A stretch of 64,000 bases of DNA, taken from assembly GCF_024055795.1 (NCBI RefSeq), contig NZ_JAMXMY010000006.1, positions 186,001 through 250,000 of the forward strand. Direction: 5' to 3'. The DNA comes from Actinoallomurus purpureus. Its GTDB lineage: Bacteria > Actinomycetota > Actinomycetes > Streptosporangiales > Streptosporangiaceae. The notes under the pieces were generated by a model. The model was not told the DNA's origin, did no database searches, and saw nothing but the letters and a program-made list of their open reading frames with translations. Within the stretch, counting starts at the first letter, position 1, and each line of letters starts with the position of its first letter. This document shows, one piece after another, positions 33,204-45,309 of the stretch. The translations under genes and the position numbers were made by a program.

Positions 33204-33395
33204 GCCGTGCCGGTCTGCGGAAGAGCGGTGCGCGCCGGGCGCACGGCACGAGTGCCACCCGGCGCGCGGACCCTGCGCCGGACCACACAGTGCGTGAGTG
33301 CCGTGCCGGTTTGTGGGAGATCGGTGTGCGCGCCGGACCACACAGTGCGTGAGTGCCGTGCCGGTTTGTGGGAGATCGGTGTGCGCGCCGGACAG
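33204..33395. repeat. 55-bp tandem repeats after the S4 gene
   Basis: Two perfect 55-bp units lie at 33275-33329 and 33330-33384, each starting GCGCCGGACCACACAGTGCG, with the start of a third unit at 33385. A decayed 36-bp relative is at about 33204-33239. The stretch of 313 bp between the S4 gene and the PQQ-propeller gene holds nothing else I can support. Units are adjacent with no spacers, so this is not a CRISPR array. Confidence 0.9.
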
Positions 33396-33460
33396 CGGGC
33401 GTGAACGCCGTACGGCCGGTGCGGCCGGTGCGGCCGGTCACGCGCTCGGCCGACTCCCCG

Positions 33461-34852
33461 TCAGCGGACGCTGACGGCGGTGACGCCGTGCGTCGTGGGG
33501 ACGAGGACGAGCGACCCGGCGAGGGTCGGTGAGGCGAACCGGGTCACCGACCCGACGCGGCGGGACCCGAGCGAACGCCCGTCGGACTGCGACAGGGCGT
33601 GCAGGACGCCGGCTTCGGAGTCGAGGGTCCAGACCGCGCCGCCCCCGACGACCGGTGATCCCTTGACGTTGGCCGGCGCGGTCCAGACGCGGCGCAGCTC
33701 GCCGCCACCGGTGACGTCCACGCGCTGCAGCCCGTTCTCGCAGGGCAGGAAGACCGAGGAGCCGTTTCTGGCCATGCCGCCGAAGGAGACGCAGCCGGGC
33801 AGGGAGGCGCGCTGGCCGCCGATGCCACCGAGGTCACGCGCGTCGAGCAGGTACACGTCGCCCGTCTTCCCGGCGATGAGCACCCGCCCGCCGGGCAGCA
33901 GCAGCGGACCGGTCGAGCCGAGGTCCTGGTCCTCGCTGTTCTCCTGACCCCAGCTCTTGGGCGCGAAGTACGAGACGCGGCGTGTCAGGTCGGGGGACAG
34001 CCGCAGCACCGAGTCGCTGCCGTCGTACGCTCCGCCCGTGCTCGCGCCGTTGCCGACGGCGACGTAGACGTCGCCGGACGCGTCGACGGCCGGGCCGGAG
34101 GGCGCCCAGATGCCTCCCATCCGGCGGGTCGGGACGGCGTAGGAGGCGACGGCGCCGGCGCCGTCGGTGCGGGAGGCGGCGACGTAGCCGACGTAGTTCC
34201 CGCAGTCGCCGTCGAGCCCGCCGAACGGGACGTACACCCTGCCGCCGGCGACCGCCAGGGCTCCACGCTGCTGCTCCGCCGTGCGGTCCCGGCCGGCCGC
34301 CACGTCGAGGCCGCGGGTGAACCGGACCCGTCCGTCCGTGGCGTTCAGCCCGACGAGGGTGTGGTGCGCCCCGGTGGTCTCCATGGCCACGAACACCGTG
34401 CGCGTGGCCGCGTCGTACGCCGGCGTCCCCGTGATCCCGAGCGGGTCGATGTTCCCGCAGGGCAGCTCCGAACGGGGCACGGGCGTGCCGAGGTTTCGCT
34501 TCCAGACCTGACGGCCGGTCGCCGGGTCGAGCGCGTAGACGGTGTCGTTCTCCGTGCCGACATACGCCGTACCGGCCACGACGATCGGCTGCCCGTACAC
34601 CGCGCCGTCCAGCCTCGCCGTCCAGGCGTCCCCGAGCGTGCGGGGAGCGGGGAAGCCGGCGGCGAACCCCGACCGGTCATTGGCGCCGTGGTACGTCGGC
34701 CAGGACGCGGTCGCCCGTACGGGTGCCGACGCGCTCGCCACGGATCCGTCCGGGGTCGGCGAACCGGCGTCGGGCTTCGACCCGCCACCGGAACCGCACG
34801 CCGTGGCGGCGGTGAGGACGATGAGTGCGGCGCCGTACGCGACCCTGCCCAT
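33461..34852 (-). CDS. PQQ-like beta-propeller lipoprotein
   Basis: The 463-residue protein has a lipoprotein-type signal (MGRVAYGAALIVLTAATAC, then GSGGG) and a beta-propeller made of PQQ/WD-like blades: YVGTENDTVYALDPATGRQV, VFVAMETTGAHHTLVGLNAT, DVYLLDARDLGGIGG. No PQQ-enzyme catalytic residues or cytochrome site are seen, so it is a binding or scaffold protein on the outer face and not a dehydrogenase. Start ATG 34852 is chosen so that the signal begins at once. It is divergent from the lysin pair. Ligand unknown. Confidence 0.84.
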   Translation of the reverse strand: MGRVAYGAALIVLTAATACGSGGGSKPDAGSPTPDGSVASASAPVRATASWPTYHGANDRSGFAAGFPAPRTLGDAWTARLDGAVYGQPIVVAGTAYVGTENDTVYALDPATGRQVWKRNLGTPVPRSELPCGNIDPLGITGTPAYDAATRTVFVAMETTGAHHTLVGLNATDGRVRFTRGLDVAAGRDRTAEQQRGALAVAGGRVYVPFGGLDGDCGNYVGYVAASRTDGAGAVASYAVPTRRMGGIWAPSGPAVDASGDVYVAVGNGASTGGAYDGSDSVLRLSPDLTRRVSYFAPKSWGQENSEDQDLGSTGPLLLPGGRVLIAGKTGDVYLLDARDLGGIGGQRASLPGCVSFGGMARNGSSVFLPCENGLQRVDVTGGGELRRVWTAPANVKGSPVVGGGAVWTLDSEAGVLHALSQSDGRSLGSRRVGSVTRFASPTLAGSLVLVPTTHGVTAVSVR

Positions 34853-34973
34853 GGGCCCATTGTCACCACAGTCCGGCGACGGCGACACGGTGATCCGCCG
34901 ACTCCATCGATTCGATCAGGGAGGCGCGGGGGCGGCCTGGCCACGGCATCGACCGGGGGGCGATTGCAGGCAT

Positions 34974-35040
34974 GGCCGGATCGTGGGGTCGGGGAACGGC
35001 CGCGTCGTGGGGGCGGGGAACGGCCGGATCGGCGACGGGG
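34974..35040. repeat. 24-bp tandem repeat in the gap before the lysin pair
   Basis: Two units, 34974-34997 and 34998-35021, begin GGCCGGATCGTGGGG and GGCCGCGTCGTGGGG and differ at three positions; a third unit starts at 35022 and fades. It lies in a 367-bp gap between divergent genes, where I see no gene. A promoter for the lysin pair is probably to its right. Confidence 0.7.
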
Positions 35041-35219
35041 CAAGGGCCGGCCGTGGCCCGGTCCTCCGTGCGGCGTGGTGAGGGGCCGGGGGGAGCGGTC
35101 CAGGAGATGCAGCCGTGGCGTCATCACCTTCTTGCCCGTCCATTAAGCGCAGCGTGGCGACCCCGATACTGACGGCATTGTTTGCGGACTGTCATCATCT
35201 GTTCAACGGGGGGTGAGCA

Positions 35220-35726
35220 ATGCCTGGAAGTGAAGCATTCTTGGCGATGGCCAAGACACAGATCGGTCCGCGAAGACGGGCCGACGGCAGCACGAAGTAC
35301 GGCGACTGGTTCGCCGAGCTCATCGGGGACCCGGCCTACCGCAGCGGTGACTTCTGCGCGATGGGCCTGCTGTGGTGCGCCTGGAGGACCGACCAGGTCC
35401 TGGCCCTGGGCGGCGTACACCGAGAGTGGGCGTGGGTGCCGTCGTGGTGGCGGCACTGGCAGGACGCCGGCCGGTCGACGCAACGGCCCGCTCGCGGCCG
35501 GATCGCCTTCTTCGATTTCAATTCGACCGGCGATCCCGAACACGTCGGAGCCGTTCTGCAGGACAACGGGAACGGCTCGATCATCACCATCGAGTTCAAC
35601 ACCCTGAACGGCTGGTGCGCCATTCGGGGCCGTCGGCTGGCGGACGTCCTCGGCTTCGGCGACCCGGAGTGGCAAGGCCGACGGGTGACGGTCGTGGCGG
35701 GCGGCGACTCCTGCTGGAGGGGCTGA
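35220..35726 (+). CDS. CHAP-domain amidase/endopeptidase without signal peptide
   Basis: The 168-residue protein is a CHAP domain: Cys46 in SGDFCAMGLLWCAW, a GRIAFFDFNSTGDPEHVGAV block with His108, and IEFNTLNGWCAIRGRRLADV. It would cut peptidoglycan amide bonds. No Sec or Tat signal is present, which is usual for phage endolysins and unusual for a housekeeping hydrolase. The ATG follows GGGGGGTGAG. The stop is one base before the GH25 start, so the two are a bicistron acting on peptide and glycan bonds respectively. No holin or phage genes are nearby. Confidence 0.82.
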   Translation: MPGSEAFLAMAKTQIGPRRRADGSTKYGDWFAELIGDPAYRSGDFCAMGLLWCAWRTDQVLALGGVHREWAWVPSWWRHWQDAGRSTQRPARGRIAFFDFNSTGDPEHVGAVLQDNGNGSIITIEFNTLNGWCAIRGRRLADVLGFGDPEWQGRRVTVVAGGDSCWRG

Positions 35727-35727
35727 C

Positions 35728-36717
35728 ATGCTCCGCGGCGCCGACATCTCGGCATGGCAGGGCACGCCAGACCTGGGGTCGCTGGCGAAGCGGTACGGCT
35801 GGTCTTTCGTCTTCATCAAGGCCACCGAGGGCGCCGCGTTCAGTGACTCCAGGTTCGCCGCCGACTGGGCTCATGCGAAGGCCGCCGGGCTCGTCCGCGG
35901 CGCCTACCATTTCGCGCGCCCCGAACAGTCGCCTGCCTCCGTCCAGGCCGATCGGCTGGTCGGCGCCGCGAGGCCCGGAGCCGGTGACCTGCTGTGCCTG
36001 GATCTCGAGCGTTCCGCGCTGGGGCAGGCGGAGACGAACGCCTGGGCCAAGGCGTTCGCCGCCCGGCTGCGGCAGCGGGCTCCCGGGGTCACGACGGTGC
36101 TGTATCTCGGCGGTTCCTACGCCGGGAACGCCACCGGCCGAGGGCTCGCCGACCATTTCGACCTGTGGTGGTACCCGCAGTACCCCGGCTCCGGGACGAC
36201 CACGAACTGGCCGCGCTCATTCAGCCCCTGGCTGCCCGCCGGGCTGACGGTGGGCTGGAAGCGGCCGCACATCTGGCAGTGGACCGACGCGTTCGCCGGG
36301 GAGTTCGACGCGAACGTCAGCCGGCTCACGATCGAGGAGCTCGCCGGAGTGGGCGGGCGACAGGAGGGGGACATGCCGTACGGAGGACAACTGCCGGCCG
36401 GTAAGGGCGGCGAGCTGGAGATCTCCTTCCCCAGGGGATTCCCAAGGGCCATCGGGCTGGTCTACGACAACAGCCTGTCGATCCCCGAGCTGGGGGTCGC
36501 ACCGCAGCCGACCGGCGAGGTGCGCATCGCGGTGCATCGCAAGGACGGCACGCACCAGCTCATCGAGGCGAAGGTCGGGATGGGGACCGTCGACGCCCAC
36601 CAACCGGACAAGACGTTCAAGACGGTCGAGTACTTCGACCATCCGGAGGACGTCGACTACGTCGTGCTGATCCGGCGCGATGAGGGCACACGACCCATCG
36701 GCTGGGACATGAGCTGA
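35728..36717 (+). CDS. GH25 lysozyme with unknown C-terminal domain, no signal peptide
   Basis: The 329-residue protein has a GH25 muramidase domain (about 1-210): MLRGADISAWQG with the first Asp, FIKATEGAAFSDSRFAADW, GAYHFARP, the catalytic DLERS, and a WQWTDAFAGEFDANVSRL end. Residues about 222-329 form a separate beta-rich domain (GGELEISFPRGFPRAIGLVY to YVVLIRRDEGTRPIGWD) that I do not recognise; it may bind wall polymers. Like its CHAP partner it lacks an export signal, so lysis, a phage tail role or a contractile particle are possible. A terminator follows directly. Confidence 0.85.
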   Translation: MLRGADISAWQGTPDLGSLAKRYGWSFVFIKATEGAAFSDSRFAADWAHAKAAGLVRGAYHFARPEQSPASVQADRLVGAARPGAGDLLCLDLERSALGQAETNAWAKAFAARLRQRAPGVTTVLYLGGSYAGNATGRGLADHFDLWWYPQYPGSGTTTNWPRSFSPWLPAGLTVGWKRPHIWQWTDAFAGEFDANVSRLTIEELAGVGGRQEGDMPYGGQLPAGKGGELEISFPRGFPRAIGLVYDNSLSIPELGVAPQPTGEVRIAVHRKDGTHQLIEAKVGMGTVDAHQPDKTFKTVEYFDHPEDVDYVVLIRRDEGTRPIGWDMS

Positions 36718-36727
36718 CCGATCCGGT

Positions 36728-36759
36728 GGGCGCCCCCCGGTCGTTTCTGGGGGGCGCCC
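36728..36759 (+). terminator. Hairpin after the lysin pair
   Basis: An 11-bp perfect stem (GGGCGCCCCCC/GGGGGGCGCCC) around GGTCGTTTCT begins 10 nt after the stop. No T-run follows. The rest of the 450-bp gap to the LacI gene shows no gene. Confidence 0.8.
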
Positions 36760-37128
36760 GCGTCGGCAGGTGCGACCGCTCGTCTCGGGCGCACGTGCCG
36801 CCGACCGGCGGCCGGCTCACTCGGCCAAGTCCGCGTACGCGGATCCGATCGAGCCTGTCCGACGCCGGCGGTTCCGTCCAGGGGGGTGCGACGGGGCCGG
36901 CCGCTGTCGTACGGGGCGGGCCTGTAGGGGGTCGACGGCGCTGTCCAGCCGGTGCCCGGCCCGTGAGCGGCCGGGTAATCGCCCACGGGCCGGGCACACG
37001 TTCTCACTGGCCGAGAGCCGCGGGTGCCGACCTTCGGCCGCTGGCCGGATCGCCGCCGAACAGCGCGCCTCTCAGCGCCTTCGATCCCTGGTCTTTTCCG
37101 CCTCCTCCAGGCGTACCGAAAAAAACCT

Positions 37129-37138
37129 AAAACGTTTT
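37129..37138. promoter_or_regulatory. LacI-type operator before the regulator gene
   Basis: AAAACGTTTT is a perfect palindrome within an A/T-rich patch (CCTAAAACGTTTTCGG) 28 nt before the LacI-type gene. The central CG and flanks fit LacI/CcpA-family sites of sugar-utilisation genes. Confidence 0.65.
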
Positions 37139-37165
37139 CGGTAACGTAAGCTCGTTTCCTGAGCG

Positions 37166-38301
37166 ATGTCAACGCCGAGATTCTGGGACGTACCGAAATG
37201 GGTTCACGTGGATTCTGAGCGGCAACGCCCGGTCACGATCAGCGATGTCGCGGCGCACGCGGGAGTGTCGATCGCCACGGTGTCCAAGGCGCTCAACAAC
37301 CGCGCGCAGGTGCGGGCGGAGACCCGCCAGCGGGTGCTCGAGGCCGCCTCAGAGCTCGGCTTCCAGCCGAACGCGCTGGCCCGTGGCCTGCTGACCGGCC
37401 AGACCCGCACCGTCGGCCTGCTCACCAGCGACAGCGTCGGACGGTTCGGGATCCCGGTGCTGCTCGGCGCCGAAGAGGCATTCGGGGCCGGGGAGATGGC
37501 CGTGCTGCTGTGCGACGCGCGCGGTGACGCGATCCGCGAGCAGCACCACCTGCGGACACTGCTCGGCCGCCGCGTCGACGGCCTCATCGTCGTGGGCCAG
37601 AGCACCGACCCGCGTCCCTCGCTCAGCCACGACCTGCCCGTTCCCGTCGTCTACGCGTACGCCCCGTCGGAGGACCCGCAGGACGTCTCATTCGTGCCCG
37701 ACGACGTCCAGGGCGCACGGACCGCCGTGGAGCACCTGCTGACGCTGGGCCGCCGCCGCATCGCCCACATCACCGGGCCGACGCACTACGCGGCCGCGCG
37801 GGATCGTGCCACGGGCGTACGGGCGTACGGGCGGCCCTGGCCGACGCCGATCTGGCCCTGTCCGGCGAGCCGCTGTACGGCGCCTGGTCCCAGCGCTGGG
37901 GCCGCCAGGCCGCCGAGATCGTGCTGCGCGCCGACCCGCGGGTCGACGGGGTGATGTGCGGCAGCGACCAGATCGCCGCGGGCTTTATCGAGGCGGCCCG
38001 CGAGCGGGGCCTGCGCATCCCGGACGACGTCGCCGTCGTCGGTTACGACAACTGGGAGGTGCTGTCCACCGAGACCCGCCCCCCGCTCACCACCATCGAC
38101 ATGAACCTCGAGAGTCTGGGCCGGACGGCCGCCCAGCACCTGTTCGCGGCCATCGACGGGCGCGCCACGCCGGGCGTGCGCCGCATGCCCTGCCGGCTGA
38201 TCATCCGCGACTCGACCGCTCCTGCCGTGGTCCATGAAAGACCCTTGCCAGCTTCTGGACGATCATCAACAATTGGGGCACCTCCGCCGGTGGCCGGGTA
38301 G
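37166..38301 (+). pseudogene. LacI-family repressor, frameshifted by an 8-bp duplication
   Basis: The first frame gives the LacI helix-turn-helix (VTISDVAAHAGVSIATVSKA then LNNRAQV) and most of the sugar-binding fold up to AARDRATGVRA, then garbles. The rest, AALADADLALSGEPLYGAWS and GVMCGSDQIAAG, RIPDDVAVVGYDNWEVL, TTIDMNLESLGRTAAQ, lies in another frame to 38301. The break is at GCGTACGG repeated exactly twice (37815-37822, 37823-37830); removing one copy restores a continuous LacI protein of about 375 residues. It precedes a large secreted hydrolase gene it probably repressed. It may be a real loss, a slippage switch, or a sequence error. Confidence 0.85.
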
Positions 38302-38370
38302 GCGCACTTCTTACGGACGGCGCTTCCACTGTCGTGAGTCCTTGCCACGCCTACCCGTAATGGGGGTTCT

Positions 38371-41127
38371 GTGCGGCGCTCACGAGTCCTGTTCCTGCTG
38401 TCCGCGGCCCTGCTCCTCACGACCGTGCTGTCCATTCTCAGTACGGCCGAGGCCGCGGTGTCCTTCTCCTCGACCGTCGTGAATCAGAACGGCGGCAACT
38501 GCATGGACGTGCCATGGGGTTCGTCCGATGACATTCAGCTCATTCAGTGGTCCTGTAATAACGGGACCAATCAGAGTTTCACCTTCTCCCCGGTCTCGGG
38601 CACCACCGACCAGTACACGATCGGCACCGTGGCGACGGGCAAGTGCGCAGGTGTCTCGGGTGCCTCGACCGCCGACAACGCCACCGTCGGCCAGTCGGCC
38701 TGCAGCGGGCAGAACAGTCAGAAGTTCCAGCTGGTGCCGGTCTCGGCGAGTAACAAGACCTTCAACCTCAAAGCCGTTCACTCCGGCAAGTGCGTCGTGC
38801 CATCGGGTGACTCCTCGGCCTCCAACACCGGCCTGGTCCAGCTGCCCTGCAGCACGGCGAGCTCCCGGACCTGGCAGGTGCCGAACTACGCCGCCCAGGG
38901 CGGCGGCGGAACCGGCAGTTATGAGGGCTTCCCGGCCCTGCCCGCCTACAACGTCTGCGGGAACTCCAGCCTCGGGCGGTCGTACGGGACGAACTTCCCC
39001 ACCCCCAACGACCCGTACTCCCAGGGCTACTACAACACCAGCGCGCTCGGCTGGGACGGCAACTACTGGCCGGTGACGACCTTCCTGTCCGGGTCGTACT
39101 TCGCGCGCGGGGTCAACAGTGTCTACAACTCGCAGTACTGCGGCGGCATGTACTCCTTCAGCGCCTACAACTACGGCGGCACCCACGCGGCGCAGTCGGT
39201 CCAGTGGACCATGGACAACGGCTACCTGCCCGCCCTGAAGACGCAGTTCACCAGCGGCTCGGTCACCATCGCCATCAAGAACTTCGCGAACAAGGTGACG
39301 TTGAACGGCAGCACCTTCATGCTGATCTACACCCGGGTCTCGGTGACCAACAAGGGCTCAGGCTCGGTGACCGTGCCGCCCGGCGGGTCCGGGCCCAACC
39401 TTGTGCGCCTGACCAGTTCGTCGCTCGACACCGTCGCCGCGGGTGCGACCAGCAACCATGACTTCGTGGCCGCGGTCGACAACTTCGGCAGCGGGGCGGC
39501 CTTCCCCAGCACCAGCACGCTGGCCTCCAGCGCGCCGGACTACGACACCGCCTACAGCCAGATGGCGTCGTACTGGAACGGCCGGCTGGGCGAGCTCAAC
39601 ACCTTCGCGCTGCCCAACATCACCCTGCCGGGCACCGGAAACCTGGCCAACCCGGGTACCGCGATGACCAACGCGTACAAGGCGGCCACGGCCTACAACC
39701 TGATCATGCAGGTGGGCAAGGCGCAGTTCTCGGCCGCCAACAACTACGCGTACATCCTCAACCACGACGTGCCCGGCGAGCTGATCGCCAAGCTGTCGAC
39801 GGGCGACTTCCACGACGCGCAGAACCTCCTGCTCACCGCCCGGATCTCCGAGAAGGAGGGCTGGGACGAGAAGGGCGCGAACTGGTACTGGGACGGGGTC
39901 TGGAAGACGCCGCAGATCTGGGCGATCTACCTGGCGAAGACGGGCGACACCTCCTTCGTCAACAGCTACTTCCATGACGACTCCGGCGGCTCCAGCGCGT
40001 GGGGCCCCAGCCTCTACACGATGATGCACACCAACTACCAGGGCCAGCTCGACAGCGACGGCACGCTGCAGAGCAACTTCGACAACGACTCGACCGGCAA
40101 ATGGCTGTTCAGCAACTACTCCGCGCTGATCGGCCTCGCGTCCTACAAGTACATCGCCACCAGGCTCGGCCTGACCTCGGAGGCGACGTACGCGGACACC
40201 GCCTACACCAACCTGCTGAACGCGCTGAACAAGGTCGTGGGCAACAACCAGTCGGCCAACGGGTTCAACTACCTGCCGTGCGAGGTCGACAAGCCCAACA
40301 GCGCCAACCGCTGTAACACGTTCAACGACGCCAACTGGGCGTCGCCGGCCTGGGCCGGGCAGAACCAGTTCGACACCATGCTGATGGGCGGCGCGCTCAA
40401 CGGGATCGTCGGCGACGCCGGCCAGATCGACCGCATGTACCAGTGGGGCTTCGCCCGGCTGTCCGCGCAGGGCTATCCCTATCCGACCTTCGGCGCCTTC
40501 AACGGCTACTCCACCGGATACAACACCTTCTACGCATCCGACGGCCTCTACAGCAACAACTACCGCGACCTGCCGATCACCAGCTACGCCTGGCAGCTCG
40601 CCACCACGACCGGCGGCCCCAACGCCTGGTGGGAGGCCAACGGCAGCGGCCCGAGCTCGTCGAATCCGTGGGCCGGTAACCACGCGGGTCCGCAGTTCGG
40701 CGCCTGCCCGTACGCGTGGCCGCTCGCCGGCCAGCAACTGGGGCTCCTCAACTCCATCGTCGCCGAGGGCCTGGCGGCCAGTGGCTCAGGCCCGTACACC
40801 TACAGCCGGCCCCTCTACATCGGACGCGGCATCCCGAACTCCTGGCTCGCCGCGGGCCAGACCATCTCGGTGAGCAACCTGACCTCGTCGTACAACGTCA
40901 GCAGCGGTGCGCGCAGCACGTACGGGGTCTCGATCGCGGTCACGAATCCGGGAGCCCGGGTGATCACCGTGAACATCACCGGCACCCCGCCCGGCGGCAC
41001 CGCCTACATCTCGCTGCCGGTCTTCTCCAGTTCCACGGTGACCTCGGTGACCGGCGGTAGCTACAACTCCGGCACCCACACGGTGACGGCCACCGGAAAC
41101 ACGATCACCATCAACCTCAACAACTGA
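38371..41127 (+). CDS. Large secreted glycoside-hydrolase-like protein with N-terminal ricin-type lectin
   Basis: The 918-residue protein has a signal peptide (about 1-29, ending AEA), then a ricin B/CBM13 lectin domain (about 30-172) with repeats such as DIQLIQWSCNNGTNQSF and STADNATVGQSACSGQNSQK. A spacer GGGGTGSYEG leads into a 700-residue catalytic-like region rich in Asn, Tyr and Trp, with helical segments (YLAKTGDTSFVNSYF, GANWYWDGVWKTPQIWAIYL) typical of (alpha/alpha)6-barrel glycosidases, and a C-terminal beta domain. I cannot name the GH family. Start is GTG 38371. The neighbouring LacI-type regulator supports a sugar-polymer role. Confidence 0.75.
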   Translation: MRRSRVLFLLSAALLLTTVLSILSTAEAAVSFSSTVVNQNGGNCMDVPWGSSDDIQLIQWSCNNGTNQSFTFSPVSGTTDQYTIGTVATGKCAGVSGASTADNATVGQSACSGQNSQKFQLVPVSASNKTFNLKAVHSGKCVVPSGDSSASNTGLVQLPCSTASSRTWQVPNYAAQGGGGTGSYEGFPALPAYNVCGNSSLGRSYGTNFPTPNDPYSQGYYNTSALGWDGNYWPVTTFLSGSYFARGVNSVYNSQYCGGMYSFSAYNYGGTHAAQSVQWTMDNGYLPALKTQFTSGSVTIAIKNFANKVTLNGSTFMLIYTRVSVTNKGSGSVTVPPGGSGPNLVRLTSSSLDTVAAGATSNHDFVAAVDNFGSGAAFPSTSTLASSAPDYDTAYSQMASYWNGRLGELNTFALPNITLPGTGNLANPGTAMTNAYKAATAYNLIMQVGKAQFSAANNYAYILNHDVPGELIAKLSTGDFHDAQNLLLTARISEKEGWDEKGANWYWDGVWKTPQIWAIYLAKTGDTSFVNSYFHDDSGGSSAWGPSLYTMMHTNYQGQLDSDGTLQSNFDNDSTGKWLFSNYSALIGLASYKYIATRLGLTSEATYADTAYTNLLNALNKVVGNNQSANGFNYLPCEVDKPNSANRCNTFNDANWASPAWAGQNQFDTMLMGGALNGIVGDAGQIDRMYQWGFARLSAQGYPYPTFGAFNGYSTGYNTFYASDGLYSNNYRDLPITSYAWQLATTTGGPNAWWEANGSGPSSSNPWAGNHAGPQFGACPYAWPLAGQQLGLLNSIVAEGLAASGSGPYTYSRPLYIGRGIPNSWLAAGQTISVSNLTSSYNVSSGARSTYGVSIAVTNPGARVITVNITGTPPGGTAYISLPVFSSSTVTSVTGGSYNSGTHTVTATGNTITINLNN

Positions 41128-41134
41128 CGGCGGC

Positions 41135-41169
41135 GACCGTGCCGGGCGGCGACGCCGCCCGGCACGGTC
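41135..41169 (+). terminator. Hairpin after the lectin-hydrolase gene
   Basis: A 16-bp perfect stem (GACCGTGCCGGGCGGC with its complement) with a 3-nt loop starts 8 nt after the stop. It is very stable and has no T-run. Confidence 0.82.
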
Positions 41170-41226
41170 CACGGGCGATCGAACCTCATGACGTCACGTC
41201 CCCGGTCAGCCGCGCCGCGTCGGTCG

Positions 41227-41709
41227 TCACGGTCGTGTGGTGACCGGTCGGGAGTGGTCCTCTCTCTTGCGAGCGCGGTAGGCGGCGGCGTTCACCCGGT
41301 GGCGGCACTTGGTGGAGCACCAGTCTCGGCGTGCCCCCCGCGAACGATCGATGTAGACCTGTGTGCACTCTGGTCTGCCGCACTCCTTGAGCAACTGTGC
41401 GTCCGGCCCGCTGAGGATGTCGATGGCGGCCCGTGCGACGGACGACATCGCCTGTTCCGGGGTGGCGTCGATCCGACGCCCTACGGCGGTGAGCTGCGGG
41501 ATCGTGCAGGGTGTCCGCGCCGTCTCGTTCACGAGGGAGAGCGAACTCTCGTCATAACCCTCGTTCGCGAGCCTTGTCGCGATGAGCGAGTGGATCGCCT
41601 CCCGGAGCGCCACGGCTTTCGGGACATCGGACGGCCGGGAGCCCGTGTCCCCGTCGACCATCCCGGACTCGCGAAACCACGAGTCCAGGCTGCTCGCCGA
41701 CGTCAGCAT
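41227..41709 (-). pseudogene. CGNR zinc-finger/ABATE regulator lacking its N-terminus
   Basis: The remaining 160 residues have the family C-terminus: LLKECGRPECTQVYIDRSRG and RRDWCSTKCRHRVNAAAYRA, the Cys-x4-Cys and Cys-x3-Cys zinc site of CGNR proteins, preceded by part of the ABATE domain. Family members are about 190-200 residues and begin with a F-x-GG-x-LxLDFxNT segment, which is absent; similarity begins about NVAPREMLTSASSLDSW. Its 5' end abuts a second gene that has also lost its start, at about 41.71-41.75 kb. The fragment might still be translated from the Met at 41709. Confidence 0.72.
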
Positions 41710-41741
41710 CTCCCGTGGCGCGACGTTGCGCCGGGCGCGCA

Positions 41742-42214
41742 GCGTTCCGAAGGCCGAGTTGGCGTGGTGGTACCAGTACTACTTCGCCACGGAGAGGGGT
41801 CGGCTCGGCCTCGAGCAGAACCGCCACGATTTCACGAAGCTGATCTGGAAGAACGTCTCTCCGACGTGGGAGTTCGACGATGCCACGTTCGATCGCACCG
41901 CGGCGGCCTTCGACAACCCCGACTACGTGAGCATCGTGATTCACAACTACCGCTGGCGCCTGGGCCTGGCCGACGGCGACCCGCGATACGACCGTCTCGA
42001 GAAGCGACTCGCGGCAGGTCCCGTCATCGCCGTACCGACGATCACCCTTGACGGTGAGCTGGATCCCTTCACACCTGCCGGAGACGGTGCGGCTTATCGC
42101 AGCAAGTTCTCCGGCGAATACGCGCACCGGACGCTGAAGGGCATCGGCCACAACGTTCCCCAGGAAGCGCCCGAAGCCTTCGCCGACGCCGTCGTCGAAG
42201 TCGACGGTTTCTGA
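41742..42214 (+). pseudogene. C-terminal half of an alpha/beta hydrolase
   Basis: From about 41745 the frame encodes AELAWWYQYYFATERGRLGL, IWKNVSPTWEFDDATF and FDNPDYVSIVIHNYRWRLGL, then TITLDGELDPFTPAGDG and the catalytic-His segment GIGHNVPQEAPEAFADAVVE. This is the second half of an epoxide-hydrolase-like protein of about 290 residues; the oxyanion loop and nucleophile elbow GxSxG are missing. Upstream codons belong to the opposing CGNR gene. No start or ribosome site is evident. It is a remnant left by a deletion. Confidence 0.75.
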
Positions 42215-42274
42215 ACGGCGCCGGCAAAAGACGACCACCACGCCCGACGGGCGGCTCTCCAACGGAGGATCCCC

Positions 42275-42361
42275 ATGCATATTCCCAGAGCGCTGATGGC
42301 TGCGTCGGTGGCCCTGATCACGGTCGCCGTCACTCTCGGCTGCTTCGCCGACCTCTTCTGA
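42275..42361 (+). CDS. 28-residue hydrophobic peptide with strong ribosome site
   Basis: The ATG follows GGAGG by 6 nt. The product begins MHIPRALMAASVALITVAVT and ends LGCFADLF: a basic start, a 16-residue hydrophobic helix, and a lipobox-like VTLGC. It could be a small membrane peptide or a truncated signal-peptide remnant. A hairpin lies 16 nt after the stop, which supports a discrete unit. No similarity is recognised. Confidence 0.5.
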   Translation: MHIPRALMAASVALITVAVTLGCFADLF

Positions 42362-42377
42362 CCGCGCCCCCGAACGC

Positions 42378-42398
42378 CCGTTCCGCCAGGCGGAACGG
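42378..42398 (+). terminator. Hairpin after the 28-residue peptide gene
   Basis: CCGTTCCGCC and GGCGGAACGG are perfect arms around a single A; the functional loop would be 3-5 nt. No T-run follows. It may serve the convergent ZIP gene too. Confidence 0.6.
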
Positions 42399-42489
42399 AC
42401 GGTCGCGTACGGCCCTGACTTCCCCAGGAGCGTCCGAAGGCCCTGGACAAGGTGGGATCGCCGCAGCGGCCGGGGAACCCGGCGGCAGG

Positions 42490-43326
42490 TCAGGCGCCTG
42501 CGGCCGTCACGATGGCGTCGGTGGCGAAACCGGCCAGCACGCCGAGCAGGATGCCCCAGGTGGTCAGCGTCTTCAGCGCCTGTTTGCGGGCCACCGCCAG
42601 GAGTTCGATGACGACGTAAAGGATGGATCCGGCGGCCAGGGTGAGGAATCCGATGGAGACCGTGTCGTTGACGACGTGCTGGCCGACAAGAGTCCCCAGG
42701 AAGGTGGGGCCGCCACCGATGAGGCCGAGCAGGGCGAGGTAGCCCCATGAGGGGAGGCGGCCCGCGGCGGCCATGGGCGCGACGATCCCGAATCCCTCGG
42801 TGGCGTTGTGCAGGCCGAATCCGATGATGAGCAGGACGGCGAGTTGTAGCTCGCCGTGGGCGGCGGAGTTGCCGATCGCCAGGCCTTCGGCGAAGTTGTG
42901 CAGCCCGATACCGATCGCGATCATCATGGGCAGGTCGCCGAGACGCGACAGGCCGGTGGGCCGAACCCGCAGTTCCGTCGCCGACGCGGCACCGGGCCCG
43001 GACGGCCTGGAAGCCGCCGGTGCGGTGCGGCGAGCGACCATGCGGTCGAAATGGACCAGGCCGACCAGCCCGACGCCGAAGCACAGCGCGAACACGGCCC
43101 CGTTGCCGGTCGCCGCGCCGTAGTGGTGATGGCCGAGCGCGGTGTCGATCGGCTCCCAGGCGTGAGTGAGCACGTCCCACAGCAGGAAGATCAGGATGCC
43201 GGTGGCGGCCGCGTTCAGCAGGGCTCTGACCTTGGGCAGGGGTGAACGCAGCCGACCGATCGGCAGGCCCAGATAGATGGTGAAGCCGGCTATCGCTCCG
43301 AGCAGCGCGACCTGTGCGGAACCCAT
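42490..43326 (-). CDS. ZIP-family divalent metal transporter
   Basis: The 278-residue membrane protein has about eight helices. The metal-path motifs are HNFAEGLAIGNS in helix 4 and HNATEGFGIVAP in helix 5, both HNxxEG as in ZIP importers of zinc, iron or manganese. A loop GHHHYG between helices and a cytosolic stretch about residues 100-125 may bind metal. Start ATG 43326. A near-consensus DtxR/IdeR box sits 60 bp upstream, so iron or manganese status probably controls it; zinc regulation would normally show a Zur box instead. Confidence 0.9.
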   Translation of the reverse strand: MGSAQVALLGAIAGFTIYLGLPIGRLRSPLPKVRALLNAAATGILIFLLWDVLTHAWEPIDTALGHHHYGAATGNGAVFALCFGVGLVGLVHFDRMVARRTAPAASRPSGPGAASATELRVRPTGLSRLGDLPMMIAIGIGLHNFAEGLAIGNSAAHGELQLAVLLIIGFGLHNATEGFGIVAPMAAAGRLPSWGYLALLGLIGGGPTFLGTLVGQHVVNDTVSIGFLTLAAGSILYVVIELLAVARKQALKTLTTWGILLGVLAGFATDAIVTAAGA

Positions 43327-43385
43327 GAGGACACTCCGAGAGTCGGGAGGATGGACGCCTCTCGCCGCACTTTCGTGCGTGCTGG

Positions 43386-43404
43386 AAAGGTGAGCCTAAC
43401 CTTA
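43386..43404 (-). promoter_or_regulatory. DtxR/IdeR-type metal box upstream of the ZIP gene
   Basis: On the minus strand the 19 bases read TAAGGTTAGGCTCACCTTT, a close match to the iron box TTAGGTTAGGCTAACCTAA of DtxR and IdeR. It lies 60 bp before the ZIP start, where it would overlap the promoter. Fe(II)- or Mn(II)-loaded repressor would shut the gene when metal is plentiful. Confidence 0.8.
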
Positions 43405-43538
43405 CTACTACTCGAATCGTAGCAACCGATCGGCACCCCGCTCTCCTGGCGCGGCAGTGCGCTGTAGCGGCAGCTCATCCTTCGGGGCTGGTCCGCCGAC
43501 GCGGTCCAACGGCTCGCGGCACCGACGTGTCAGGTCCG

Positions 43539-44564
43539 CTACGGGCGGCTGGCGCCGTTGTAGTGGGAGACCCAGTACGGGTTGGACATGCTGTCCAGCC
43601 GGATGACCTCCCCCGTTCGCGGTGCGTGGATGAACTTGCCGCCGCCGACGTATATGCCCTCGTGGCCCATGTCGTCGAAGTAGACGAGGTCGCCGGCCTG
43701 TAGGTCGGACTTGGAGACGTGGCGGGTGGCGTTGTACTGGTCGGGGACGACGCGAGGGAGGTTCACGCCCGCGGCGCGCCAGGACATCATCGTCAGCCCG
43801 GAACAGTCATAGCCCTTCGGGCCGGTGCCGCCCCAGATGTAGGGCTTGCCGAGCTGGGCGTAGGCGTACTGCACGGCCATACGCGCGGGCCCGGATGCGG
43901 GTCCGTTGTAGGTGCCTCCGCCGCCCGAGCCGCCGGCCTTGGTGGGCTCGCCCGCCTGGCGCAACAGGCCCTTCTGCTTGGCGATGGCCTTCTCGACCGT
44001 GGCCTTGCGCTTTTTCAGCGCGGCCGCCTTCTGCGAGACGGTCTGGTAAGCGGATTGGGCCTCGGCCTGTTCGCGGCGCAGGCGCTGAGTGGAGGCCAGG
44101 AACGCTGCGAGCTCCTGGCCGCGGTTGTTCGACAGCTGGGTGAAGGTCGACATCTGACTCAGCGCCGCGTCCGGATTCTTGGAAGCGAGCAGCGTGGCGG
44201 TCCTCGAGTCCAGGCTGCCGTTCTTGTACGCGTCGGCGGCGATCTGCGCGGCTCGCGCGCGCAGTCCCTCGTAGACGTGCCTCTCGCCCTTCGTCTGGCT
44301 GCCCAGCACCGTGAGCTTCTTCTTCGCGGCGTCCAGTTCGGTCTTGGCCTTGTTGTACTGATCAACGATTTTGTCGACCTGGCCGTTGAGCTTCTCCAAC
44401 TGCTTCTTCGCGGCTGCGGCCGACGGCTTGGGGCCGGCCTCGGCCGGGGCCGCCGTGAGCGTTACGGCGGCCGTGACCGAGAGCGCCGCGTACAACCGGA
44501 GCGATCGGCGCAGCCGGGAGCGATCCGCGGCGTGCTCGTTCGTGACGGGGTGGAAGAACGCCAC
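43539..44564 (-). CDS. NlpC/P60 peptidoglycan endopeptidase (RipA-like)
   Basis: The 341-residue protein has a signal peptide (about 1-44, ending AEA), a long coiled-coil region (about 50-205, KKQLEKLNGQVDKIVDQYNK) and a C-terminal NlpC/P60 domain. The catalytic Cys is in GYDCSGLTMMSWRAAG, the His in MGHEGIYVGGGKFIHAP. It would cleave wall peptide cross-links during growth or division, with the coiled coil autoinhibiting. The GTG start at 44564 follows GGAGAGGAG. A ydaO/c-di-AMP riboswitch lies just upstream, as for many actinobacterial wall hydrolases. Confidence 0.93.
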   Translation of the reverse strand: MAFFHPVTNEHAADRSRLRRSLRLYAALSVTAAVTLTAAPAEAGPKPSAAAAKKQLEKLNGQVDKIVDQYNKAKTELDAAKKKLTVLGSQTKGERHVYEGLRARAAQIAADAYKNGSLDSRTATLLASKNPDAALSQMSTFTQLSNNRGQELAAFLASTQRLRREQAEAQSAYQTVSQKAAALKKRKATVEKAIAKQKGLLRQAGEPTKAGGSGGGGTYNGPASGPARMAVQYAYAQLGKPYIWGGTGPKGYDCSGLTMMSWRAAGVNLPRVVPDQYNATRHVSKSDLQAGDLVYFDDMGHEGIYVGGGKFIHAPRTGEVIRLDSMSNPYWVSHYNGASRP

Positions 44565-44582
44565 CTGAGAACTCCTCTCCTT

Positions 44583-44722
44583 GGCCGCCTACCGGGTCAG
44601 CTGTCGGGCTCGGGCCGGAGTAGCCCTACCGGGTGCTCGTGCGCTCCGGATTCGCCCCGGGAGTCGGGTCCCCGGTTCCCCTGAGGGATTCGGCGGTCGG
44701 CCGTGCCTCGTGTGAAGCAGGG
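44583..44722 (-). ncRNA. c-di-AMP (ydaO/yuaA) riboswitch
   Basis: Read on the minus strand the leader contains, in order, GAATCCCTCAGGGGAACC, GGGGCGAATCCGGAGCGCAC, CACCCGGTAGGGCTAC and CCCGACAGCTGACCCGGTAG, the conserved blocks of the ydaO aptamer. It ends just before the ribosome site of the NlpC/P60 gene. High c-di-AMP would turn the gene off. Recognised from motifs by eye; no model score. Confidence 0.87.
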
Positions 44723-44943
44723 GGCAGCCGATCTCTGACGGAGTGTAGGAGATCTTTTCGGTCTTCTGCTACCTGATGGAGCGATTACGTGGAGCTCGGT
44801 CGATCGCCGAAACGGCGGGGATGCGGGGGGCGTCGGTAGAGGCGCATGTCGGGGATGGTGGGCCTGGTGGCGGCCGGGCGCGCCCCTGATCCGGCATCGC
44901 CGGACCCGGGGAACCCAGCGAAGAGCCACGCTAGGATCCTCCT

Positions 44944-45309
44944 ATGGCTTGTAGGAGATCGGTCCTGGCGAGGGGGAGTGTCACGCAGCCGTACGTGGCG
45001 GTGCTCGTGATCGCGGCTCCGGGAGCCACCGAGGCCAGGTCGGCGGTGGAGAGGCGACTACGTCACCGCGGGTGGCCTCGGACCTCGTCGCCGGCGAATG
45101 CCGGATTGCTCATCGTGTGCGGCGAACCGGGTCAGACGCTGAGCCGTACGGTGCAGGCGATCTGGGACGACATGCCGGGGCCTCGCACCATGACATGGCT
45201 CCGGGAAGCCGCATCGGCCGCCGAGATCGATGCGACGCTGGACCGGGCGGCGCAGCGGCTGGCCGACATTCAGGAGCAGTGGCCGGACGCTCTCGTCCGG
45301 AACGGCTGA
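44944..45309 (+). CDS. Hypothetical protein, 121 aa
   Basis: A soluble protein with a beta-alpha pattern: PYVAVLVIAAPGATEARSAV, NAGLLIVCGEPGQTLSRTVQ, AIWDDMPGPRTMTWL and a helical end ASAAEIDATLDRAAQRLADI. I do not recognise the family. Start is uncertain: ATG 44944 gives a poor N-terminus and GTG near 44980 is plausible. It stands alone between the divergent NlpC/P60 unit and the convergent hydrolase gene. Confidence 0.6.
   Translation: MACRRSVLARGSVTQPYVAVLVIAAPGATEARSAVERRLRHRGWPRTSSPANAGLLIVCGEPGQTLSRTVQAIWDDMPGPRTMTWLREAASAAEIDATLDRAAQRLADIQEQWPDALVRNG

Follow-up and report, generated by a model that had tools for sequence, protein, structure and literature searches.

A gene for a sugar-responsive repressor of the LacI family has probably been inactivated, and recently so, in Actinoallomurus purpureus, by one strand-slippage event that added a single 8-bp unit within its reading frame. 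As a mutation, this would most likely be ordinary slippage in an accessory repressor. The gene lies in a stretch of 64,000 nucleotides from one contig, called the window here, and coordinates refer to positions in the window unless another contig is named.

The gene is split between two frames of the forward strand. The first open frame (37166-37954) encodes 220 residues in the LacI frame, which comprise the helix-turn-helix and the N-terminal part of the sugar-binding core, followed by 42 foreign residues and a stop codon at 37952-37954. A GTG further along, near 37209, may be the real start codon, and homology sets in at that point. The remainder is found in another frame at 37831-38301 (stop codon at 38299-38301) and encodes the C-terminal half of the sugar-binding core. 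That this is a LacI-family gene, as the initial annotation proposed, is upheld by domain matches. The N-terminal piece, which occupies 37166-37810 ahead of the tract, matches the LacI helix-turn-helix domain (PF00356) with 65.5 bits against a cut-off of 27. The sugar-binding core is matched by PF00532 in the N-terminal piece and by both PF13377 (101 bits) and PF00532 in the C-terminal piece. What is lacking is the single uninterrupted open frame of a LacI/GalR gene, which is broken at the 8-bp duplication. Judged from its sequence, the gene is a LacI/GalR member by descent, but not a working one as sequenced.

When aligned with the Lac repressor structure 1efa, the N-terminal piece covers residues 2-196 and the C-terminal piece begins at residue 218. 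This places the break around residues 197-202 (E. coli Lac repressor numbering), inside the sugar-binding core. The rest of the gene had been described as intact. Apart from the break this holds for most of its length, but not for the very end. Homology of the C-terminal piece ceases at approximately its residue 131-132 (about 38226), and a run-on tail of 24 residues extends past the usual C-terminus. This tail has a GC3 of 0.44 and the composition of non-coding DNA, and the usual stop codon is missing.

The period-8 tract

The exact tandem pair of GCGTACGG that drew attention to the gene is present, with copies at 37815-37822 and 37823-37830. However, the tract exceeds the extent first given. 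Tandem Repeats Finder delineates a perfect period-8 array of 23 bp on the forward strand (37811-37833), which consists of 2.9 copies of ACGGGCGT and contains the doubled unit (37815-37830). The 21-mer core of this tract occurs once in the 9.25-Mb genome.

Is such a repeat more than chance would provide? The 8-bp doublet alone is unremarkable, because the window holds three lag-8 runs of at least 8 bases and a mean of 2.85 is seen in 100 windows simulated with a third-order Markov model. The word GCGTACGG alone carries little meaning as well, since it is a preferred word, with 18 matches in the window against 3.5 expected from dinucleotide shuffles. The full tract is another matter. Its 15-base lag-8 run is the sole lag-8 run of at least 10 bases in the window, and no lag-8 run of 15 bases was seen in the 100 simulated windows. 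When all lags of 5-14 are considered, there are two runs of at least 15 bases in the window compared with three across all 100 simulations combined. Chance was rejected as the origin of the 23-bp tract (the 15-base lag-8 run), but not of the 8-bp doublet as such.

A 15-base lag-8 run is the length expected when one extra unit is added to a 7-base run. The precursor would have held two 7-bp direct repeats (ACGGGCG) with starts 8 bp apart, and a single strand slippage would have added one 8-bp unit to it. Direct repeats of 7 bp placed 8 bp apart are a standard slippage substrate. Precursors of this kind are also ordinary in this DNA, as 91 runs of at least 7 bases at lags of 4-20 not divisible by 3 are present in the 64-kb window, the tract included.

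Other repeats were seen in the window. The second of the two runs of at least 15 bases (lags 5-14) is a 9-bp array at 33413. An intergenic 55-bp tandem repeat with 2.2-2.5 copies occupies 33275-33411. A 22-base piece of it is found genome-wide only at its two places there, and the congener interval that aligns with this repeat is shorter.

Comparison with orthologs

The best 80 of 358 confirmed orthologs were used for comparison, and in all 80 the two parts of lacI are in one frame. The gap between the parts is 12 bp in 73 of them, 9 bp in six and 15 bp in one, as against 20 bp in the window. An extra 8-bp unit therefore explains the frame break exactly, and the earlier expectation that one copy fewer would restore the frame is confirmed. 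In none of these 80 orthologs is there a lag-8 repeat of at least 7 bases at the position of the tract, and none has a frame break there. This makes the lesion a singleton and the repeat private to the lineage, rather than a switch that has been kept. Stop codons are found within seven of the 80 ortholog stretches, each one past the conserved C-terminus, where tblastn ran over it, and the L064 stretch is cut by a contig end. The lacI of Nonomuraea aridisoli (L049) continues for about 70 residues beyond the usual C-terminus, which might reflect a lost stop or a small frameshift at the end.

The nearest named relatives belong to the Streptosporangiaceae, for example Nonomuraea and Acrocarpospora. 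LacI repressors from these genera, Planotetraspora and others have the same domain order as the window gene, and the N-terminal part of the window protein is 81-86% identical to its ten closest counterparts among the 80 named loci, L042 and L043 excepted. The neighbourhood differs. The Streptosporangiaceae orthologs adjoin an ABC sugar importer and a GH127-type gene in nine of the 11 loci inspected, whereas the window lacI adjoins a gene with a lectin domain.

Accessory status and flanks

Seven congeners were searched for the repressor. Two of them gave matches at E 1e-50 or better, both with 62% identity, and the other five gave none. A relative of the lectin gene was found in one of the seven (33% identity). 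In a DNA search of 33461-45300 against the same genomes, the left flank was conserved at 75-87% in several, and no ortholog-level match was found for 37166-41127. Loss of the repressor is plausibly tolerated, because the gene is accessory and has no match above 62% identity in the seven congeners.

The right flank has a history of its own. In one congener (G004, locus L152), paired genes for an ABATE/CGNR-type regulator and an alpha/beta-hydrolase are intact and divergently oriented, and the blocks that align with the window are about 0.74 kb apart. In the window these blocks abut, as they would after a deletion of about 0.73 kb, so that both genes appear to have lost their 5' ends at 41748/41756.

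Alternative explanations and the age of the lesion

One alternative is that the second unit is an assembly or sequencing error, in which case the living strain would carry a single unit and its repressor would be intact. We consider this unlikely. Common sequencing reads are all longer than the 23-bp tract, and their typical errors are single-base changes at homopolymers, which argues against an error here. Frameshifts also look rare in this assembly, since no net frameshift separates about 3.9 kb of neighbouring coding DNA (four genes) from two congeners, and at 29 of the genome's 31 lacI-type places the open frame reaches 324 aa or more. A small surplus of altered invariant sites downstream of the break (see below) points the same way. 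Nevertheless, the genome is a draft (9.25 Mb in 52 contigs, 97.9% complete) and the lesion is a singleton frameshift within an otherwise well-kept gene. A survey of frame breaks in 1106 complete genomes expects, in the part of the paper available, that BLASTp-validated singletons among such breaks are mostly sequencing errors and not true indels (PMC3711429), and this keeps the error explanation alive.

Perhaps the repressor was instead lost some time ago and its downstream part is decaying. Part of the evidence fits. Among columns that are invariant in 63 orthologs (the 80 minus L064 and 16 Streptomyces-type loci, L100, L101 and L103-L116), the window protein deviates at three of 48 after the break and at none of 80 before it, and as many deviations after the break occur in only one of the 63 orthologs. 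This is a hint that the break may not be brand new, although a 90% cut-off removes the contrast (five of 135 columns before the break, three of 78 after). The run-on C-terminal tail, the nearby deletion joining two truncated genes and the absence of lacI at the ortholog level from the seven congeners would also be in keeping with an old loss. However, the C-terminal part has no further stop or frame break, and GC3 is 0.89 before the break and 0.95 after it. Its branch is not long either. The ratio of C-part to N-part branch length is 0.67 for the window gene and has a median of 0.96 in 20 orthologs, 13 of which are at least as high; these are the 20 of 63 orthologs with N-terminal tips above 0.05, the other 43 being too short to compare. 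An old pseudogene is thus quite improbable. The initial view of the lesion as recent or artefactual agrees with the GC3 of 0.95 after the break and with the branch length. Its age would be recent, perhaps not of yesterday.

The remaining suggestion, also made in the initial annotation, was that slippage acts as a reversible switch on the repressor, a form of phase variation. A period-8 tandem repeat does sit at the frameshift site and could lose one unit again. However, 2.9 units is short for phase-variable loci, and lacI is not a surface gene. Reversible duplications in capsule genes of the pneumococcus are reportedly described in primary papers by Waite and others. The available part of one later source reports a short tandem duplication within wchA (cap8E) of nontypeable pneumococci, with reversible loss as the outcome of such duplications in capsule genes (PMC4022640). 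The window gene is like wchA in having an exact short tandem duplication, potentially revertible, inside an open frame. It is unlike wchA, a capsule gene with a visible phenotype, in being an actinomycete regulator seen in one isolate. For insertions of up to 9 bp, the same text (PMC4022640) gives a reversion figure of about 1e-5 at most, which argues against a switch. The single-base and IS changes in the available part of PMC13410964 are a weaker parallel. The GeneTack scheme, as given in the available text of PMC3711429, asks for recurrence in five or more members before phase variation is called. A conserved contingency repeat was rejected here, as the repeat is missing from all 80 orthologs (the best 80 of 358) and none of them is frame-broken at that place. 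A switch is therefore very hard to credit, and the same is true of a low-frequency version in which a minority of cells would lose the repressor and express arabinoside-type glycan genes constitutively as a form of bet-hedging.

Recent inactivation by slippage is the reading that we favour. A literature search found no description of this lacI locus, which does not mean that none exists. Annotations should list this gene as a lacI pseudogene with a frameshift, or as a candidate for a read check, and not as a short protein. If both units are real, the locus adds one case to those in which ordinary 7-bp slippage has removed an accessory sugar regulator, and genes under its control might be expressed without inducer in this strain.

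Regulatory consequences

What would follow from inactivation by slippage? The truncated product would keep its DNA-binding domain and lose the C-terminal half of the core. From what is known of the family, the loss of this half means that the product should not fold or dimerise normally. A candidate operator region precedes lacI at 37114-37143 on the forward strand, where the palindrome AAAACGTTTT (37130-37139) lies inside an inverted repeat formed by TACCGAAAA and TTTTCGGTA. This palindrome has only two sites in the 9.25-Mb genome, and both are upstream of lacI-type genes, which suggests autoregulation through it. Its own promoter would then probably be derepressed. The second site (G000:C14:94399-94408; loci L155 and L006) has an ABC transporter gene on one side and a lacI-type gene on the other. 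A kinase-like gene, which we take to resemble a rhamnulokinase gene, comes next after that lacI-type gene.

The effect on the adjacent lectin gene is harder to predict. No operator-like palindrome was found between lacI and the lectin gene, the sole one near lacI being AAAACGTTTT. Because the candidate palindrome precedes lacI and none precedes the lectin gene, derepression of the neighbour, as first proposed, would require cotranscription. A promoter-like site that is a consensus match only (38245-38273, forward strand; TTGCCA, 17 nt, AACAAT) follows the conserved end of lacI and precedes the lectin gene. The premature stop leaves 416 nt untranslated ahead of the lectin gene and, given cotranscription, might lower its expression by polarity. 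Cotranscription would thus derepress the lectin gene, a separate promoter would leave it unchanged, and polarity would lower its expression. An inverted repeat with perfect 10-bp arms (38295-38304 and 38348-38357, forward strand, with 43 nt between) also precedes the lectin gene. A hairpin was rejected there, the fold z-score of -1.27 indicating no significant stability.

Another palindrome, TGTKAGCGCTAACA, is found in 36 of the 154 loci examined, many of them from Nonomuraea. It is absent from the window at up to three mismatches, and was therefore rejected as a shared ortholog operator for the window lacI. With one mismatch allowed, the A. purpureus genome has just two sites for it, which lie around a different lacI-type gene on contig 5. 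For these reasons a regulon of the broken LacI cannot be constructed from it.

The lectin gene and the likely regulon

The adjacent gene (38371-41127, forward strand) encodes a secreted-type protein of 918 aa with a ricin-B lectin domain and a catalytic-type part. It had been called a hydrolase. This label comes from context, since the catalytic part has no match in Pfam (none of eight relatives at E 0.1) or among PDB sequences (at E 1, with a single sequence or a profile). A single-sequence fold model of this part was too poor for use (pLDDT 34.7), and no catalytic domain of a known glycoside hydrolase family was found in the protein. The protein is therefore a putative hydrolase. Many residues of the 730-residue catalytic part are invariant across this product and its relatives (L128-L132 and L134-L137), and the genes for the relatives often adjoin lacI or GH127 genes. 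The group is possibly an undescribed carbohydrate-active family. As a small protein group that lacks Pfam and PDB matches in these searches, it may merit its own study.

A functional link between lacI and the lectin gene is plausible, because a lacI-type gene lies directly upstream on the same strand in four of the ten places, including the window, where the catalytic part or a relative of it is encoded (the window, L131, L132 and L136), and in a divergent orientation in one (L135, by eye). In the stretches examined at the other five places none was seen. Two loci (G009:C12 and G020:C319) have lacI directly upstream of the lectin-gene relative in the same order and strand as the window. They are more distant family members, with 53-55% identity to the window in the N-terminal part of LacI and 55-56% in the catalytic part, and their lacI genes are intact, unlike that of the window.

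What might this repressor control? GH127 was identified by Pfam in ortholog loci L038 and L039, and GH43 in L039. A lectin-gene relative in G058 (72% identity) adjoins a GH127 gene. The GH127 genes and ABC importers beside the orthologs, together with the GH127 gene beside the G058 relative, suggest that the regulon targets arabinoside-type plant glycans. LacI-type regulators of beta-arabinoside genes are named for Bifidobacterium in the available part of PMC5928203, where the palindrome TGTTAGCGCTAACA was not found. The A. purpureus genome also has an intact relative of this lacI on contig 24 (59% and 53% identity over the two parts), with ABC importer genes nearby as well as GH127- and GH43-like genes recognised by eye. 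It may cover part of the lost function.

The other short member among the 31 lacI-type places of this genome is a remnant at G000:C11:115500-119000 (L157) that has only the helix-turn-helix. Inspected by eye, the remnant lies next to reverse-transcriptase-like sequence, as though a mobile intron had interrupted it.
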